Shown: positions 13,154 to 42,888 of the stretch, in pieces
How positions within the stretch are numbered: the stretch's first letter is position 1
Layout of the letters: each line of letters begins with the position of its first letter
Source of the DNA: Candidatus Nanopelagicaceae bacterium
GTDB taxonomy: Bacteria > Actinomycetota > Actinomycetes > Nanopelagicales > Nanopelagicaceae
Direction: 5' to 3'
DNA: 57,381 bases
Assembly: GCA_018882885.1 (NCBI GenBank)
Contig: VERG01000009.1
Span: forward strand, 1 to 57,381
Notes under the pieces: model-generated
The model's database searches: none
What the model was told of the DNA's origin: nothing
What the model saw: only the letters and a program-made list of their open reading frames with translations
Translations under genes and position numbers: made by a program

Positions 13154-13179
13154 ACTGAGTAGTTGGATTAGGCCGATGA

Positions 13180-13222
13180 GCAACCTGGATTGCAACCTGG
13201 ATGGCAACCTGGATTGCAACCT
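13180..13222 (+). repeat. 12-bp tandem repeat, 3.6 copies
   Basis: GCAACCTGGAT(T/G) repeated at 13180, 13192 and 13204, with a partial copy at 13216. It lies between two divergent genes, in the presumed promoter region of the methyltransferase gene. Confidence 0.9.
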
Positions 13223-13263
13223 AGCTCTCAACTAGCGTCGAATAAAGGTGAGGAGAACTGGCT

Positions 13264-14526
13264 TTGATACTCAATTCTTCGATACTCAATTCTTCGATAC
13301 TCAATATTGAGCAGGCCCTTGCCCAGGCGGCCACCTTACTTGCCGACCCAACAAAGGTACGACGGATTATTTTTTCCGGAAAACAGCGCAACCTAATGCC
13401 GCCCTACCAGAGAATTGATATCAGGCCAGTTCAGTTAAAAGCTGGACTGCATTGGCAATGCGTAAGCCATGATGGCAAAAAGGACATAACTAAGAATCTG
13501 CCTTTAGATCAGCTCAATTTGGGTAACTACTTAATGGATGGTTATGCAAATCTAATTGTAGAAAACGATGTACAACAGTTTAATTTACGAGTTACTAAAT
13601 CAGGAAAGGCAGAATTTGGCTTTACTAAAGTGAGTCGTGACATTCCTAATGAAATCTCCCTAAGTCATGATCGAATCAAGATTAGATTACTGGATGAGAC
13701 TGATCCGATATTTATAGCATTGGGTATAAGTGACAATGATGGCGTACTAAAACCAACTCGAACTGACAAATTCAAGCAGGTGCAAGAATTTTTGAAGAAC
13801 ATAGTAGAAGTACTTCCTGAAGTAACAAAAAAGTCCTTGGCTAATAAAGCGATTAAAATAGTTGATTTAGGTTGCGGTCACGCCTATCTTACATTTGCTG
13901 CCTATAAGTATCTTAAGAACCAAGGTTTTGCTGTTTCAGTAATTGGAGTCGATGAGCGGACTGATAGCAGAGAACGAAATAGCCAAATCGCCCAACAATT
14001 GGGGGTTTCCGGAGAGGTTAAATTCGAAGCCAAGCAAATCTCCAATTTAGCTGATTTTGAGGTAGATGTTGCGATTGCACTACATGCATGCGATACAGCG
14101 ACAGATGATGCGATTGCTTGGGCTGTAAAAAATAATGCGCGAGCCATTTTGGTGGCTCCATGTTGCCAACATGATATTCAAAGACAAATGCAGGTTGCGC
14201 CGGCTCCTTGGTCAATTGCAACGAGACATGGAATTTTGCATGAACGGCTAGGTGACTTAATCACCGACTCTTTGCGCGCACAAATTCTGCGCATCTTGGG
14301 TTACAAAACCGAGATCATAGAATTCATTGCCGGATCTCATACACCCAAGAATCTAATGATCAGAGCCATGAATACCGGAGTACATAATCTGAATAGAACT
14401 CCAGCTGCCAAAAGTGATGAAGTTAAGGCAAAAGAATTTGCCGAGTACGACCTAATGTTGCAGCAATGGGGAATTACCCCGAAATTGCAGGAATTATTGG
14501 CTGCCCAGCTTGATGCGCTTCGTTAG
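13264..14526 (+). CDS. SAM-dependent methyltransferase, Methyltransf_32-like
   Basis: 420 aa. The SAM-binding motif VDLGCGHAYLTFA falls mid-protein (about residue 200), followed by VIGVDER. The later VAIALHACDTATDDAI and ILVAPCCQHDIQRQ stretches mark the METTL25/RRNAD1-like group; the substrate is unknown. TTG start with SD GGTGAGGAG upstream. The first 15 codons are a tandem repeat (SILN units), so the N-terminus may vary in length between strains. It is followed 28 nt later by argG. Confidence 0.85.
   Translation: MILNSSILNSSILNIEQALAQAATLLADPTKVRRIIFSGKQRNLMPPYQRIDIRPVQLKAGLHWQCVSHDGKKDITKNLPLDQLNLGNYLMDGYANLIVENDVQQFNLRVTKSGKAEFGFTKVSRDIPNEISLSHDRIKIRLLDETDPIFIALGISDNDGVLKPTRTDKFKQVQEFLKNIVEVLPEVTKKSLANKAIKIVDLGCGHAYLTFAAYKYLKNQGFAVSVIGVDERTDSRERNSQIAQQLGVSGEVKFEAKQISNLADFEVDVAIALHACDTATDDAIAWAVKNNARAILVAPCCQHDIQRQMQVAPAPWSIATRHGILHERLGDLITDSLRAQILRILGYKTEIIEFIAGSHTPKNLMIRAMNTGVHNLNRTPAAKSDEVKAKEFAEYDLMLQQWGITPKLQELLAAQLDALR
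13266..13307 (+). repeat. 15-bp tandem repeat at the start of the methyltransferase gene
   Basis: GATACTCAATTCTTC at 13266-13280 and 13281-13295, then a third copy diverging after GATACTCAAT (13296-13305). The period is a multiple of three, so copy changes keep the frame; it begins at the last base of the TTG start codon. Confidence 0.9.
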
Positions 14527-28597: not shown

Positions 28598-28796
28598 GTT
28601 GACCGTGCGTACGGACAAGCGGGGGAAACTATAACCATATGCGCCTGAGATACCAATTCTGGGCATTCCTGAGGGCCCACCCTTCGAACCCTAGAACCTC
28701 GAGCTTTTCTTGCTTTACTCCGAATTTCCTGCCGATAACCTCGAACTCAATTTTGCGTCAAGGTGTTTTTTGAGGCTATTGCGGGAGAATCATGGT

Positions 28797-29660
28797 GTGA
28801 AGTTGCACCGAGGAAAAGCGGCAAGAAACAACCGGAAGTTGCACAAAGCATTCCCTATAGCTCTTTTGGCTATTTCAGCGATCAATATTTCAGCGGCTAA
28901 TGCTTCTGTATTTGAGACACAGAATAACTATCAATCTTCCTGGGAGTTGGCCATAACCAAGAAATTGGGTGAGTCGGCGCTAAGCAAAAAGGAGCTAATC
29001 AAGAGCGACCCAAGCAAGAGTGAACTAAGCAAAAGCGATCCAAGCAAAAGCGAACTAAGCAAGAGTGCGCAGAAAAGCCTCGAGATTGGCCTTACTTCAC
29101 AACAAACTTTAGAAATTCTCAAACAGATTCCTATTAAGGGTAGAGCGCCAAAAACTGGATACTCTCGCTCGGCCTTTGGTCCGCAATGGTCTGATGTAGA
29201 TCGCAATGGATGTGATACTCGAAATGACATCTTGAGGCGCGACCTAGTTAATGTTGTGTTCAGAGAAAAAACCAAGGATTGTGTTATTGAAAGTGGAATT
29301 TTAATTGATCCATTTTCAAATACTGAAATTAGATTTGAGCGTGGCTCAAAGAGCAGCATGTTGGTTCAAATTGATCATGTGGTTTCACTTTCTAATGCCT
29401 GGCAAACCGGAATTTTCCAAGCCAGTCTGAAAGAGCGCACCGCATTTGCCAACGATCCGATAAACCTTTTGGCGGTTAAGGGCTCACTAAATTCGCAAAA
29501 AGGCGATGGAGATGCAGCCACCTGGTTACCGCCCTACAAATCATTTCGCTGCAAATACGTGGCTCTGCAAATTAATGTTAAAGCGAAATATGGATTGTGG
29601 GTCACCCGAGCTGAACAGGAAGCTATGGTCAGAATTTTGAGCAGCCAGGAATGTAGATAA
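28797..29660 (+). CDS. Secreted HNH nuclease, DUF1524 type
   Basis: 287 aa. Signal peptide: basic start (KLHRGKAARNNRKLHK), hydrophobic core and an ANA cleavage site. A Ser/Lys/Asp-rich repeat linker follows (about residues 63-92), then the nuclease domain with IDHVVSLSNAW, FANDPINLLAV, NSQKGDGDAATWLPP and a C-terminal cysteine. Related secreted actinobacterial proteins act as extracellular nucleases. GTG start at 28797 has SD GGGAG; the frame extends to an ATG at 28710, which would spoil the signal peptide. It sits between two tRNA genes and just before the Tad pilus locus. Acquisition of external DNA or nucleotides is an attractive but unproven role. Confidence 0.85.
   Translation: MKLHRGKAARNNRKLHKAFPIALLAISAINISAANASVFETQNNYQSSWELAITKKLGESALSKKELIKSDPSKSELSKSDPSKSELSKSAQKSLEIGLTSQQTLEILKQIPIKGRAPKTGYSRSAFGPQWSDVDRNGCDTRNDILRRDLVNVVFREKTKDCVIESGILIDPFSNTEIRFERGSKSSMLVQIDHVVSLSNAWQTGIFQASLKERTAFANDPINLLAVKGSLNSQKGDGDAATWLPPYKSFRCKYVALQINVKAKYGLWVTRAEQEAMVRILSSQECR
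28983..29072 (+). repeat. 30-bp in-frame tandem repeat in the nuclease linker
   Basis: Three 10-codon units: SKKELIKSDP, SKSELSKSDP and SKSELSKSAQ (28983-29012, 29013-29042, 29043-29072). It keeps frame and forms a hydrophilic spacer between signal peptide and nuclease domain. Confidence 0.92.
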
Positions 29661-29754
29661 CTCTGCGCTTATTTGGGGAGTGTCGCCACCACCGAAAGAG
29701 AAATGATTAAATAAAAGCCCAAGGCAAAAAGCATGGGGAGAAATTCATGAACTT

Positions 29755-29874
29755 GCCATTGAGTTAGTGGGTTGTGCGACCGGTATTGAACATCGCCATT
29801 GAGATAGTGGGGTGTGCTACAGGTATTGAACATCGCCATTGAGATAGTGGGGTGAGCGACGGGGCTCGAACCCG
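29755..29874 (+). repeat. 40-bp tandem array made from the tRNA-His 3' end
   Basis: Three copies with a 40-bp period, marked by GCCATTGAG(A/T)TAGTGG at 29755, 29795 and 29835. The third copy is the real tRNA-His 3' end plus downstream flank. The two others carry mutated versions (GGTATTGAACAT where the tRNA has GGGCTCGAACCC), so they are decayed copies of the T-arm and acceptor. Confidence 0.9.
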
Positions 29875-31483: not shown

Positions 31484-32309
31484 TCCAATTATTTGCGCAT
31501 TCCTGGCTGCAATGATCTGTGCCATCGGTCTATTGATTGTTCAAAGTGGCTTTACTAGATTTGATTTGGGAAGAGGGTTCAGCAACAAGCTTAATAAAAT
31601 AAGACTGAAAACCCTATTACTGATATGCGTCTCAATGCTCTCAACTTTCATGGTGATGCTATTACTAACTAATTCAAAACAAATATCAATTGCAATTTCC
31701 ACGTTATCTACCTCAATTCCCTTTTTGATAAATAGGCAGAGAGCTGAAAAGGTGTTAAGAGCGCGGGAAAGTTCTTGGCCTGAGGTGATTGACTCCCTGG
31801 TCTCAGCTTTACAGTCCGGCGTTTCAATCTCGGATGCCTTACTAGCACTTGCCGAACATGCTCCAACTGCGCTCCGACCTAATTTCATCAAAGTGAAGTT
31901 CGCTGTTCAAAATGGAGAGGGTCTGGAGTTCGCATTAAGGAAAGAAAAAGAGGAGTTGAAATCTTCAATTTCTGATCAAGTCTTTGAAACTTTGATTGTT
32001 GCAAAGGAGTTTGGCGGTAGGGATTCCAATAATGCTTTGAGACTTTTATCTGAGTTTGTTCGTGATGACTTAGATGTCTTGGAGGAGATAAGAACCAAGT
32101 TTGGCTGGATCAAGAACTCTGCTGCGTTGGCGACTGTTGCGCCATGGATTCTGCTTCTTCTGCTTTCATCGCAGAGATCAACGGTAGAGGCTTTCTCGAC
32201 TAGCTCCGGTGTGAAAATTCTGGCCTGCGGAGTCTTTATGACGGCATTGGCCTATCTCTGGATGGAGCGAGTTGGTCGCATTCCAATCGCAGCCAGGGCG
32301 TTGCGATGA
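31461..32309 (+). CDS. Tad pilus inner-membrane protein TadB-like
   Basis: 282 aa. Two N-terminal and two C-terminal membrane helices around a cytoplasmic T2SF/TadB domain (RARESSWPEVIDSLVSALQSGVSISDAL). Forms the pilus platform with the TadC-like protein. SD AAGGAAG before the ATG, within the end of cpaF. Its stop TGA (32307-32309) overlaps the first ATG of the following repeat array. Confidence 0.9.
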   Translation: MYPAFAISPIICAFLAAMICAIGLLIVQSGFTRFDLGRGFSNKLNKIRLKTLLLICVSMLSTFMVMLLLTNSKQISIAISTLSTSIPFLINRQRAEKVLRARESSWPEVIDSLVSALQSGVSISDALLALAEHAPTALRPNFIKVKFAVQNGEGLEFALRKEKEELKSSISDQVFETLIVAKEFGGRDSNNALRLLSEFVRDDLDVLEEIRTKFGWIKNSAALATVAPWILLLLLSSQRSTVEAFSTSSGVKILACGVFMTALAYLWMERVGRIPIAARALR

Positions 32310-32409
32310 GGTTGTACTGGGAATACGTGGGGGAAATGAGATGAGGTTGTACTGGGATTACATGGAGGAATTGAGATGAGGTTGTACTTGGAATACGTGG
32401 GGGCACTGC
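32305..32409 (+). repeat. 35-bp repeat array forming three overlapping mini-ORFs between tadB and tadC
   Basis: Three 35-bp units (32305-32339, 32340-32374, 32375-32409), each starting GATGAGGTTGTACT. Each unit is one mini-ORF: 32306-32344 MRLYWEYVGEMR, 32341-32379 MRLYWDYMEELR, 32376-32414 MRLYLEYVGALR. Every stop overlaps the next start as ATGA; the first ATG overlaps the tadB stop and the last stop overlaps the tadC ATG. Each unit also has a purine-rich SD (GGGGG or GGAGG) about 7 nt before the next ATG. Removing the array would leave a direct ATGA overlap of tadB and tadC. Confidence 0.92.
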
Positions 32410-32410
32410 G

Positions 32411-33193
32411 ATGAATCCAACTTTATTTCAAAGCGAGTCATTTTTATCACTTCTGGTTGTAGCGCCATTACTTTTTTGGGGAGTTTGGATTGCGAGCGTA
32501 GAAAGCTTTGATGAGTTAAATTCTACAAACTTAATTCTAAAAAAGATGGAATCTGGCGGTAGATCTACTCGCAAAGCTTTACTCCCATTTTATTTTTTGG
32601 TTGCTTCTTTGGGAGTCGCGATTGTTGCAGTCGCATTCTTTACTAAAGGTGATTACTTAATCCCAATGATTGCGCTATCGGTCATGACGAGCGCATTTGT
32701 GACGATTGCCAAACGTAATAAAGTGAAAACAACTATTAATTTAACAAAGCAATTAGAAAGCGAACTTCCTGCCCAGATTCAATTATTAACAATTCTAATT
32801 TCGTCAGGTATTAGCCCTGGAAGGGCAATAGCCATTCTGGCCAATAAATCTGAGTCTTTAAGTTCTACTGCTTTCCTAAATGTGGTGCGAAATATTGAAA
32901 TGGGAGATTCAATTATTGAAGCTCTGGATAAACTAAAAAGAGATTTTGACTCCAATTCACTTCGTCGATTCGTAACCAGTCTGATCTTAGGGATAGAGCG
33001 TGGGTCAACATTAGGACCGATTCTGATTTCTCAAGTGAGAGATGCCAGGATGGCAAGCAAAAGCGAGATTATGGCTAAAGCGGGGAAAGCGGAGATTGGG
33101 TTGATGATCCCGGTCGTATTTTTGATTCTGCCAATATCAATTCTCTTCGCATTATGGCCCTCTTATCAACAGCTGGGCGGCTTCTTCTCTTGA
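32411..33193 (+). CDS. Tad pilus inner-membrane protein TadC-like
   Basis: 260 aa, T2SF-domain platform protein: N-terminal membrane helices, a cytoplasmic stretch (TKQLESELPAQIQLLTILISSGISPGRAIAIL), and two C-terminal helices (GLMIPVVFLILPISILFAL). The ATG is the end point of the 35-bp mini-ORF array, so its translation is likely fed by reinitiating ribosomes. Confidence 0.9.
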   Translation: MNPTLFQSESFLSLLVVAPLLFWGVWIASVESFDELNSTNLILKKMESGGRSTRKALLPFYFLVASLGVAIVAVAFFTKGDYLIPMIALSVMTSAFVTIAKRNKVKTTINLTKQLESELPAQIQLLTILISSGISPGRAIAILANKSESLSSTAFLNVVRNIEMGDSIIEALDKLKRDFDSNSLRRFVTSLILGIERGSTLGPILISQVRDARMASKSEIMAKAGKAEIGLMIPVVFLILPISILFALWPSYQQLGGFFS

Positions 33194-33798: not shown

Positions 33799-34247
33799 GA
33801 TTTACCTTCAAGCTATACGACAGCAACCATGAATCCATACATGAATCCATACATGAATCCATACATGAATCTAGACAAGAATCCAGACAAGATTCGGACC
33901 ACAAATCTATACATCAGGATTTCGAGCGAGGATCAATCGAAGCTGGTCTGACTTTTATTCCAACCACTGCATTTTTCTTGATGGTGTTACAGCTGGTTTT
34001 ATCTGGTGGATTTCAGGTGGCAGAAAAATTGTCTCTACAAAATGTAGTAACAAGAGCCGCCCTTGGAGGCAGCCAGGAAGTTGAACTTTTTGCTTCCGAT
34101 AAGCGTGAATTGAGTACAGAGACAGTTCCATTGCCTGGAGGAGGAGAGTTAATCTTGGCGCGCTCTGAAATTTCCAGTCCGCGGATTACTAATTTGCTCA
34201 CTGGCAATCCCAAGATGAAAGCTGAAGCGATTGCGATTCGCGAGTAA
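33795..34247 (+). CDS. TadE-like pseudopilin with repeat-built N-terminus
   Basis: 150 aa. Residues 12-39 are seven 4-residue repeats; then FERGSIEAGLTFIPTTAFFLMVLQLVL (ERG at 44-46), the single membrane helix typical of TadE-like proteins, and an outer domain. ATGA overlap with the pilin-like gene before it and 17-nt overlap with the gene after it. Confidence 0.75.
   Translation: MRFTFKLYDSNHESIHESIHESIHESRQESRQDSDHKSIHQDFERGSIEAGLTFIPTTAFFLMVLQLVLSGGFQVAEKLSLQNVVTRAALGGSQEVELFASDKRELSTETVPLPGGGELILARSEISSPRITNLLTGNPKMKAEAIAIRE
33828..33911 (+). repeat. 12-bp in-frame repeat encoding HESI-type units
   Basis: Seven 12-bp units, the first three identical (CATGAATCCATA), later ones diverging step by step. 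They encode HESI three times, then HESR, QESR, QDSD, HKSI. The gradient of decay away from the 5' end suggests recent expansion there. Confidence 0.92.
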
Positions 34248-34758
34248 GAAGCTTTCCCCGAGAGCTCGCTTTCGCAGCCATCCTTTACTCTCAGGACTGG
34301 ACGTTGATGAACGTGGTTCGGCAGTTTCTGAGTTTGTCCTATTAGCAACGCCTCTCTTTCTACCAGCACTGCTGTTTTTTAACGCCATGCATAACACCGC
34401 GGATGAGGAGATTAATACCTCTATGTTGGCACGCCAGGCGGTACGTGCATTCGCAACCGCACCAGATCTATTTACCGGTCACCAACGGGTAAAAGTAATT
34501 CTTGATGAATATACCAAGTTGGAAGCTTCGGCAAACTCTTTGAATACTTGGAATTCGACAAGTTCAAGTAGAGAAATTGGGGGCAAATTTACCTACAACA
34601 TCAAATGTTTTGCAGAGAAATGTCTAACCCCTGGTTCGCTTATTGAGTTAGAGCTCTATCGAAAAATTGAATCCATTGATGGGCTTGAGGAAAGTAAGAA
34701 TCGCAAAGCTAGCGCGGTTGCCAGAACATATGTAGATAAATGGCGGGATGCGCCGTGA
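34231..34758 (+). CDS. TadE-like pilus protein
   Basis: 175 aa. DERG|SAVSEFVLLATPLFLPALLFF (ERG at 27-29, with the prepilin-type E at +5 after G) gives one membrane helix; the rest is an outer domain with two cysteines (CFAEKC). TTG start inside the end of the preceding gene. Its stop forms GTGA with the first codon of the 39-bp array. Confidence 0.75.
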   Translation: MRFASKKLSPRARFRSHPLLSGLDVDERGSAVSEFVLLATPLFLPALLFFNAMHNTADEEINTSMLARQAVRAFATAPDLFTGHQRVKVILDEYTKLEASANSLNTWNSTSSSREIGGKFTYNIKCFAEKCLTPGSLIELELYRKIESIDGLEESKNRKASAVARTYVDKWRDAP

Positions 34759-34871
34759 TTAAGTGTAATGAGCAGAGATTAAGTGGATGCGCCGTGATTA
34801 CTTGTAATGAGAAGCGGCTCAGTTGTTGATCAGCCATTACAGATAACGAGCAGTAGTTAGAGGGATGATCA
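34755..34871 (+). repeat. 39-bp repeat array filling the spacer between two pilus genes
   Basis: Three 39-bp units (34755-34793, 34794-34832, 34833-34871) fill exactly the space from the GTGA stop overlap to the next GTG start. Units 1 and 2 agree at about 27 of 39 positions, unit 3 is more decayed. A mini-ORF at 34755-34829 reads VIKCNEQRLS then VITCNEKRLS, one per unit. GATGCGCC precedes the GTGA at both unit junctions. GAGGG lies 7 nt before the GTG at 34872. Confidence 0.8.
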
Positions 34872-35396
34872 GTGAGAATTGTTGACGCTCGAAAGGCTCC
34901 AGGTTTATTGGTACAACCTTTGAATAGATTATTCAGGGCACCGGAAGAGTTCGACTCTGAAAGAGGTTCGATATCTCCACTCGTCATGCTCTATTTCACA
35001 GTTGCTATGTTGATGGCATTTGTTGTTTCTAATGTCGCCTCAACTTACGTGGCGCGCAGAGACTTGATTAATACAACCGAGGCCGCTCTTTCAATCGCCA
35101 CTCAGGAGCTAGATGAATGGGTTTACTACTACAGATTGCCAACCAAAGGGATTCCAGGATCAAACAGTGAGCTAGTTCCAATTAACTGCAGTGATGCAGG
35201 AAGCACATTTTCTCGGGAATTAGCTGCCATGAACACAAAACCATCTCCGGCGCGAATCATCAGCTATAGGTGTGATGGGTATTTATTGGGCGCAACAGTT
35301 GAACAGGAATACCAATTGCCCTTTGCTACATCAATCTTAGGAGTTGAATCATTCACAAATCGAGTAGATGTCTCGGTGCAGTCCACTTTTAAATAA
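34872..35396 (+). CDS. TadE/TadG-like pilus protein
   Basis: 174 aa. SERG|SISPLVMLYFTVAMLMAFVVS (ERG at 30-32) is the membrane helix; the outer domain has two cysteines (PINCSD, SYRCDG) that may pair. Last gene of the Tad run. GTG start with SD GAGGG, at the end of the 39-bp array. Confidence 0.72.
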   Translation: MRIVDARKAPGLLVQPLNRLFRAPEEFDSERGSISPLVMLYFTVAMLMAFVVSNVASTYVARRDLINTTEAALSIATQELDEWVYYYRLPTKGIPGSNSELVPINCSDAGSTFSRELAAMNTKPSPARIISYRCDGYLLGATVEQEYQLPFATSILGVESFTNRVDVSVQSTFK

Positions 35397-38350: not shown

Positions 38351-38445
38351 ATCTGAGCTGTTAGTTATCGGCTGAGCTGTTAGTTATCGGCTGAGGTGTT
38401 AGTTATCGGCTGAGGTGTTAGTTATCGGCTGAGGTGTTAGTTAAC
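38351..38445 (+). repeat. 19-bp tandem repeat, five copies, between ftsX and the S41 protease gene
   Basis: Units of GGCTGAGGTGTTAGTTATC at 38351, 38370, 38389, 38408 and 38427. The two first have GAGC instead of GAGG and the last ends in AAC. An older, decayed unit may precede (CTTAGGCGTTAGATATT). Non-coding in all frames by stops. Confidence 0.93.
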
Positions 38446-40699: not shown

Positions 40700-41070
40700 G
40701 GGGGTGAACGGTCTCGACTTCGATTGTTGAGCCAGGGGAAGCGGGCCGAGGAAGCCGGGATGATCTCGTTAACCACACAAACCCGTGCATATAAACAGAC
40801 GCAGATAAAACTTCGTCTGATTACGATCTCGCTGCCTAAGCGAGCGCTGTAATCCGTTGCCCTGAGCTTGCTCTCGCCTCAGGATCCAACGTCGATAGAG
40901 AGCTTACTAACCGATAGCGTTGTGACTGTCGGAAAGGACATCTAACACAACTGAGTTCGTCGGTTACTTGTGTGCGTGAGAACCGGGACTGAGAAAACGA
41001 CTAGCACACTACGCCCGTAGAAGCCCTGTATCAGTGTCGAAGGACCCGGGTTCGATTCCCGGCACCTCCA
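40700..41070 (+). ncRNA. ssrA: Transfer-messenger RNA
   Basis: 5' end GGGGGTGAACGGTCTCGAC pairs its first seven bases with CACCTCC before discriminator A at 41070; the T-arm CCGGG-TTCGATT-CCCGG is present. 371 nt. The tag frame starts at GCA 40801 and reads ADKTSSDYDLAA, then TAA at 40837-40839. CCA is not encoded. Rescues stalled ribosomes with SmpB and marks the peptide for Clp proteases. Confidence 0.95.
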
Positions 41071-41223
41071 CCCGTTAGTACTTTTTATTGGTTGCTGGCG
41101 CCGTCGATTATCAATTGGACCGAGAGCTTTCTACTGATACCGAATTTCACGGCCTTAATCTCTTACTGAAATTGCAGCCTATTAATAATCTTTTTGCATC
41201 TTTAGATAATTCAAAGTATCCAT
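41071..41223. other. Spacer after tmRNA
   Basis: 153 bp, no gene, repeat or clear terminator recognised. Confidence 0.4.
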
Positions 41224-41550: not shown

Positions 41551-42888
41551 TTAGGCAGACTCATGTATCGGTCGAGCCGGAACAATAAACTCCTTGCCCG
41601 CGGGAGAAATCCATCGGCAGGAACCATCGGCAAAACTCTCTAAATGCCAACCATCATGAGTTTTCATACGATGATGGCGACGACAAAGCAGCCCAAGATT
41701 TTCTGGAGATGTTTGTCCGCCCTCCTCCCAAGGAATCGCGTGATCAATATCTGAAACTCTTGCAGGTTGACTGCACCCCGGGAACCTGCAGGTTCGATCA
41801 CGTGCGGTTAAGAAATCAACTAAAGATTGTGACGGCATGTAACTTTCCCTACCGAGACTGAGTAAGTTGCCAGTGCCTGGATCTGTAATGAATTTTCGCC
41901 ATTTTGCATCACTGGAAAGTTGTCTTGCTACTGAGGCTGGAATTGGTCCATAACCATTGAGTTCTGCAGGGTTGTCAGCTAAACCGAGAGCTGTAGGTAG
42001 ATCCATAGTTATATTTATCGAAACTGGGCGACGATGCGGCTGATAATCATCAGAAATTCGGGCCAACAAATCGCCGCAAATCTCAGCCAAAGCATCGGCG
42101 CGCTTCATCTCGATATTGCGATTGTCGAGAGACTGGTGATTCCCAAAATCTTCCTTGGAGTTTAGAGAACAACTCCTTCTATCTCTCATAGAAATCAAAG
42201 AATTTATAGAGAGCATTACTGTTTGAGCATCCTCTATCGGCAAGAGAGCAATAAGTGTTGCCATTCCATCACCTTCGGGGTACATGCGAACGGAGCGTGT
42301 GTCACGGGCAGCGACAACTTTTTCTTCAAAACTCTCAGGAGATGCCTGGGCGAAAAGGGTTCGAAGCTTGCGTCCAACCTGTGCTGGAGTATGAAACTCA
42401 GCATGAGCTAGGGCCTTGTTTTCGATTATCAATAAATCTTCAGTCGAAATACCCCGCTTAATCGCCTCGGTAGATTCACGCGCAATCAAGGTCGCGTGGC
42501 TTGGTGAGATGTCACCATTTGCCAAAGCCTCACATGTTGCGGGTAAGTGATTAGTGAGCACTCGAGCCACATCTATGCGTATTTGTGCGGTACTGGAGGA
42601 TAGACGAAGGGCGGTAGCCACATCCTCTCGCTCGGACTCATCAACACCCTCCCAAAGATCTGAGCTTTCGGAGGGCTCAGAACCGGCGATTGCCAGAGTC
42701 GCGCGCTGGATGAGTGAGGTCAACCAGGAGTTTTGTTTCTCTAAAGCGGCTAAGTAATCGATTTTGCCTGCAGTTGTGAGGTTCTCTGGATTGATACCAA
42801 TCAAGTGACCCAGTGGTTCGTAACCGCCAGGTTGGTTGAGCAGCTCAATAAGCTGCTCTTCGACTGGTTTTTCTAGGGTGACTCGCAT
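41551..42888 (-). CDS. DUF222 protein with C-terminal HNH nuclease domain (13E12 type)
   Basis: 445 aa. N-terminal DUF222 helical domain, C-terminal HNH: RDRTCRFPGCSQPARVSDIDHAIPWEEGG then NLGLLCRRHHRMKTHDGW, with both zinc-type cysteine pairs and the catalytic H. This family, repeated in mycobacteria as 13E12, is found in multiple copies in actinobacteria, with unknown role. CAGAAT lies 6 nt before the ATG, a weaker leaderless candidate. Confidence 0.92.
   Translation of the reverse strand: MRVTLEKPVEEQLIELLNQPGGYEPLGHLIGINPENLTTAGKIDYLAALEKQNSWLTSLIQRATLAIAGSEPSESSDLWEGVDESEREDVATALRLSSSTAQIRIDVARVLTNHLPATCEALANGDISPSHATLIARESTEAIKRGISTEDLLIIENKALAHAEFHTPAQVGRKLRTLFAQASPESFEEKVVAARDTRSVRMYPEGDGMATLIALLPIEDAQTVMLSINSLISMRDRRSCSLNSKEDFGNHQSLDNRNIEMKRADALAEICGDLLARISDDYQPHRRPVSINITMDLPTALGLADNPAELNGYGPIPASVARQLSSDAKWRKFITDPGTGNLLSLGRESYMPSQSLVDFLTARDRTCRFPGCSQPARVSDIDHAIPWEEGGQTSPENLGLLCRRHHRMKTHDGWHLESFADGSCRWISPAGKEFIVPARPIHESA

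Follow-up and report, generated by a model that had tools for sequence, protein, structure and literature searches.

A derived 39-bp tandem array between two TadE-like genes lies in a regional array hotspot near a DUF222-HNH gene

Two adjacent TadE-like genes of a Candidatus Nanopelagicaceae genome are separated by a spacer that is built of repeats, and a second repeat array of different sequence occupies another gene junction of the same operon. Did these arrays arise through a process that acts on overlapping stop and start codons, as was proposed in a first-pass annotation, or do they reflect a property of the chromosomal region in which the operon lies? We analyzed the array, the 57,381-nt stretch of DNA that contains it (referred to here as the window), and the corresponding locus of related genomes.

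The spacer and its ancestral state

The spacer extends from the GTGA at the end of the upstream gene to the next GTG, and its length is 117 nt (3 x 39; positions 34755 to 34871), as originally annotated. The features of this junction are as follows.

34231 to 34758, + strand: upstream TadE-like gene (assigned by position; no Pfam match)
34746 to 34784, + strand: 39-bp unit 1, of which the first 13 bp are the TadE-like 3' end (D-A-P codons and stop)
34755 to 34829, + strand: mini-ORF running across units 1 and 2; likely incidental
34785 to 34823, + strand: 39-bp unit 2
34824 to 34862, + strand: 39-bp unit 3, decayed
34863 to 34875, + strand: partial fourth unit (13 bp), which holds the downstream GTG start
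34872 to 35396, + strand: downstream TadE/G-like gene, GTG start at 34872 (PF13400, E = 0.0013, below the cut-off)

The 3' end of the upstream ORF reads ...GATGCGCCGTGA. The unit opens with the final codons of this gene (13 nt), and the array thus grew from local sequence. Units 1 and 2 are identical at 32 of 39 positions (82%), while the maximum over 1,000 dinucleotide shuffles was 26/39. Unit 3 is clearly decayed, as the first reading of the sequence had it, with 21/39 matches to unit 1; this likeness is above chance (approximately 3e-4 of the 39-mers in the window reach 21/39). The partial fourth unit (GGATGATCAGTGA) matches units 1 and 2 at 10 of 13 positions. The copies are thus arranged head to tail in a constant register with above-chance likeness (weaker for unit 3), as in tandem repeats of the minisatellite type, and the array by itself is an ordinary tandem duplication. 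TRF reported a period corresponding to half-units of ~19 bp. Apart from the 39-bp pair, few comparisons between half-units are supported (1 versus 2, p = 0.007; 1 versus 5, p = 0.01), and 39 bp is therefore the better period. The mini-ORF that had been described across units 1 and 2 (VIKCNEQRLSGCAVITCNEKRLSC*) is present within a longer ORF (34740 to 34829). The predicted RNA fold of the spacer was not unusual (z = -1.1), and no Rfam match was found in it.

No spacer array was found at the homologous TadE-like junction in the genus relatives compared. The two pilus-type genes overlap in G009, G008, G004, G007, G011, G022, G003, G013, and G023 (i.e., a direct overlap that reads GATGCTCCGTGA in G009, an ATGA overlap in G008, and longer overlaps in G004, G007, G011, and G022). 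They abut in G016, which carries in-frame 15-bp repeats just inside the downstream gene. A direct overlap in array-less homologs had been raised as a possibility at the outset, and overlap or abutment is indeed the state in these relatives; the 117-bp spacer is therefore derived. The closest relative, G009 (~0.02 substitutions per site in a protein tree), lacks a 165-nt block of the window that comprises the array and ~49 nt of the 5' end of the downstream gene, and part of its downstream gene start resembles that of G008. Its clean overlap could therefore stem from a later deletion, and we base the polarity on the remaining relatives.

Tandem arrays across the window and at the same locus in relatives

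Nine tandem arrays with many different unit lengths were detected between 13 and 39 kb of the window (26 kb) and none in its remainder, and nine were detected in 630 kb sampled elsewhere in the same genome. For intergenic arrays alone, the numbers were 6 in the 13- to 39-kb region and 2 in the 630 kb (0.14 expected per intergenic base; p of approximately 9e-9). These counts were obtained with one repeat finder and simple ORF calls from mostly draft assemblies, in which arrays may be collapsed, and the statistics treat related genomes as independent. Besides the 39-bp array, the region includes the following.

13175 to 13305, no strand assigned: a pair of arrays close to the far margin of the hotspot, with periods of 24/12 bp and 15 bp
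29748 to 29860, no strand assigned: 40-bp x 2.8 array, also part of the hotspot
32305 to 32414, + strand: 35-bp x 3.1 array where two T2SSF (TadB/TadC-like) genes formerly overlapped by ATGA
33828 to 33889, + strand: 12-bp x 5.2 in-frame coding array (HESI repeats)
38353 to 38443, no strand assigned: 19-bp x 4.8 array between ftsX and a downstream peptidase-like gene

A GmrSD_C-domain gene carries in-frame repeats of 15/30/45 bp in its N-terminal region (28980 to 29067), which also belong to the hotspot. Outside the window, the few arrays of the same genome (in L082, L085, L086, and L087) are mostly coding and have periods of 15, 18, or 30 bp.

The 35-bp array can be read as three 12-residue mini-ORFs (MRLYWEYVGEMR, MRLYWDYMEELR, and MRLYLEYVGALR) joined by ATGA. 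At its junction, the genes of most relatives overlap by ATGA, GTGA, or TTGA. In G030, a 20-bp duplication of independent origin occupies exactly this position. The earlier view that the same architecture arose more than once is thus well founded, given that both arrays of the operon were inserted at ancestral stop/start overlaps and that G030 adds a further duplication.

The order of genes at this conserved locus is tad-prfB-ftsEX-(peptidase)-smpB-tmRNA-DUF222-pnt. The same locus is rich in arrays of different sequences in G008, G016, G009, G017, G020, G003, G029, G030, G032, G036, and others. The other contigs are clearly array-poor in G000, G008, G016, G032, and G029; those of G028 and G026 are not clearly poor, and coding arrays are common there too. 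Across the family, most hotspot arrays either occupy ordinary intergenic gaps or preserve the frame of the gene that contains them. Their periods are multiples of 3 for 57 of 61 coding arrays versus 13 of 47 intergenic ones, a pattern that fits unbiased duplication followed by selection. A hotspot of this kind is unusual and testable.

Two assemblies showed further irregularities at this locus. The G009 ftsX gene (L049, 3050 to 3735) lacks ~70 internal codons relative to that of the window, through either a real deletion or an assembly error, and a 36-bp duplication is present at its 3' end. Two diverged versions of prfB-ftsEX occur in the single assembly G003 (L142 and L092), suggesting mixed strains or contamination.

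Array density around the DUF222-HNH gene

Two further features of this locus are as follows.

40700 to 41073, + strand: tmRNA gene, flanked by smpB and the DUF222-HNH gene
41551 to 42888, - strand: conserved, predicted nuclease gene with DUF222 and HNH domains, a candidate cis source of the hotspot

The product of the latter gene contains a DUF222 domain (PF02720, E = 4.5e-29, above the cut-off) and a C-terminal HNH domain (PF01844, E = 3.7e-8). The HNH motif (D.DH ... N.G.LCRRHH) is intact in all 18 aligned proteins. Sequence searches retrieved no related solved structure. A scan with one SOS box consensus yielded 35 weak matches versus 21 expected, none of them clearly at the DUF222-HNH gene.

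The number of intergenic arrays per 100 kb was 44 within 1 kb of the DUF222 gene; it was 12, 8.5, 7.5, and 10.5 in successive intervals out to 8 to 16 kb and then 3.9 and 2.0 (32 to 100 kb), compared with a background of 0.5. Part of this fall is due to the larger amount of intergenic space near the gene; per intergenic base, the enrichment is approximately 10-fold both within 2 kb and at 2 to 16 kb. The arrays of the window lie on one side of the DUF222 gene, at 3 to 29 kb, with none within 3 kb.

Syntenic regions without the DUF222 gene contained no intergenic arrays in 185 kb, where the rate of regions that have the gene would give ~22, and 9.8% of their sequence is noncoding by the same ORF calls. 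A six-protein tree indicated five independent losses of the gene. The five corresponding sister contrasts between DUF222 loss and arrays all point in the same direction (sign test, 1/32, one-sided). In G014, for example, the DUF222 gene is gone without a remnant and the tmRNA gene is kept, while its close relative G020 keeps both the DUF222 gene and arrays. The smpB-ftsX part of the locus is on a separate contig in G028, and the intergenic arrays are on the contig with the DUF222 gene. The link was noticed after looking, in genomes that are related to one another; the genes whose presence was compared with arrays were the DUF222 gene, the Tad genes, the tmRNA gene, and the GmrSD_C gene. The other three do not track the arrays: Tad pilus genes are kept in the array-less G004, G007, G011, and G022; the GmrSD_C gene (at 28710 in the window) is present in array-less genomes and absent from several array-rich ones; and the tmRNA gene can be recognized by eye at the G014 locus, which lacks DUF222, and is thus not sufficient. 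The replication terminus was likewise rejected as a cause. A pattern search located dif in 7 of 8 genomes. In G024, which is complete, the site is opposite dnaA and distant from the hotspot locus; in the genome of the window, it is on a different contig. We also rejected Ku-dependent end joining, as no Ku was found in 21 genomes.

After the hypothesis had been formed, a fresh test was performed on 23 loci from previously unused genomes (one of them a new G023 contig). Their flanks contained 8 intergenic arrays versus 1.8 expected per intergenic base (p of approximately 6e-4). These arrays were confined to 5 of the 23 loci; the other 18 had none within ~1.5 kb and include all six single-contig genomes of one genus. 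The DUF222 gene is therefore not sufficient for arrays. No array was found near the DUF222 gene of G031 either. Among more distant Actinobacteria, G048 and G039 each carry numerous copies of DUF222 and showed no clear effect; their small excess of arrays was almost all coding, and we did not count it as support.

Candidate explanations and related systems

We assign a probability of roughly 50% to the reading that the spacer is a derived array of a regional hotspot at smpB-tmRNA-DUF222-pnt, for which nicking or breakage by the DUF222-HNH nuclease is the likeliest generator. A 39-bp piece that included the TadE-like 3' end and its stop codon would have been duplicated at the ancestral stop/start overlap, expanded to three units and a partial fourth, and subsequently decayed. 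Such an array could persist at any length because its first copy would keep the upstream gene intact and its last copy would keep the downstream start, which is consistent with the period data. From the linkage, the distance profile, and the gene losses, we infer that the adjacent nuclease causes the arrays through local nicking or breakage. The HNH enzyme would prefer its own neighborhood, and offset nicks would be converted into duplications by fill-in or slipped-strand synthesis without Ku; later growth in copy number would be ordinary replication slippage. The broader proposition that a chromosomal HNH nuclease of this DUF222/13E12 type is a cis-acting local mutator, which maintains a standing hotspot of tandem duplication and by which the same 20 to 30 kb has been remodeled in many related actinobacterial species, is tentative and, in our judgment, rather unlikely.

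The recurrence of arrays in one operon had originally been taken to suggest a process specific to overlapping stop/start junctions. One form of such a process would be stalling of translation at ATGA or GTGA that promotes duplication. Two arrays of this operon and one in G030 are indeed located at former overlaps. However, only ~3 of the ~50 intergenic arrays of the hotspot are found at such junctions, a larger number of arrays is in frame within coding sequence, and the 630 kb sampled elsewhere holds just 2 intergenic arrays with all junction types pooled, which makes an overlap-specific process highly improbable. The array rate follows the chromosomal region, and the positions at junctions are those that would survive selection alone. 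Since a duplication spanning an overlap would leave both genes whole at any length and would be harmless there, these repeated "inventions" need no special process. It is somewhat less far-fetched, albeit still improbable, that the array is functional, i.e., that it sets the distance between the two pilus genes, their ribosome loading, or their translational coupling and that its tandem mini-ORFs are under selection. Mini-ORFs with stop/start overlaps are readable in the sequence, and a GAGG-like site precedes the GTG at 34872, but the decay of unit 3, the ordinary folding of the RNA, and the lack of an array in this spacer among the relatives, and hence of conservation, argue against such a role.

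A serious rival, which we regard as quite possible if not favored, is that the hotspot has another local cause (DNA structure, transcription, or replication conflict) and that the DUF222 gene is a mere marker, co-lost during genome streamlining. The array-less lineages do include small, compact genomes, many other loci in the family have the DUF222 gene but no arrays, and the arrays of the window are several kilobases or more from the gene. On the other hand, streamlining fits poorly with DUF222-less regions that retain noncoding sequence and yet have no intergenic arrays, and a marker would not readily account for five independent losses (one of them within the close pair G014 and G020) or for the drop in array density with distance from the gene. 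The exclusion of the terminus, with dif located elsewhere, removes one such local cause.

The arrays of the hotspot share several features with the intergenic tandem repeats and VNTR minisatellites of bacteria, which are attributed to replication slippage: direct repeats of ~10 to 70 bp at low copy number, variability between relatives, and coding periods in multiples of 3. For lake Planctomycetota, structurally variable tandem repeats between genes have been described (PMC9426551). The present arrays differ in their approximately 10-fold concentration per intergenic base at one conserved locus and in being missing where one neighboring gene is missing. Tandem repeats are common; if true, a hotspot at a fixed position that disappears with one neighboring gene would be a rare case of a gene-linked local mutator in a small-genome bacterium, with the DUF222-HNH enzyme as a testable suspect for the source of local mutation. 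Small tandem duplications induced by breaks or adjacent nicks have been studied in eukaryotes (PMC8355091, PMC5730883). Filling in of offset nicks would produce head-to-tail duplications as long as those seen here. The eukaryotic routes use end joining or Pol alpha-primase; in the present case, Ku is absent and nicking by the HNH enzyme is presumed.

The DUF222 + HNH architecture is shared with the REP13E12 proteins of Actinobacteria. Some 13E12-family HNH genes of M. tuberculosis were described as LexA targets, and a role in repair was proposed without a test (PMC4181829); the family has also been encountered as a repetitive element (PMC10589994). In contrast, the gene studied here mostly occurs once per genome, at a fixed position that has apparently been inherited vertically. 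Our literature search found no report of tandem arrays accumulating around a DUF222-HNH gene or of such a hotspot. A link of this kind, if true, would provide the first testable cellular role for the widespread and uncharacterized DUF222-HNH family. Two distinct copies of the gene are present at the smpB-pntB locus of G008 (L048, 3 to 953; L197, 692 to 2189), apparently through tandem gene duplication. The second copy is not an independent locus, since its contig carries pntB-pntA and hence represents the other side of the same locus. G008 is also the genome with the most intergenic arrays. A DUF222-HNH match with five stop codons in G091 (C21, 1233 to 2540) is possibly a decaying copy.
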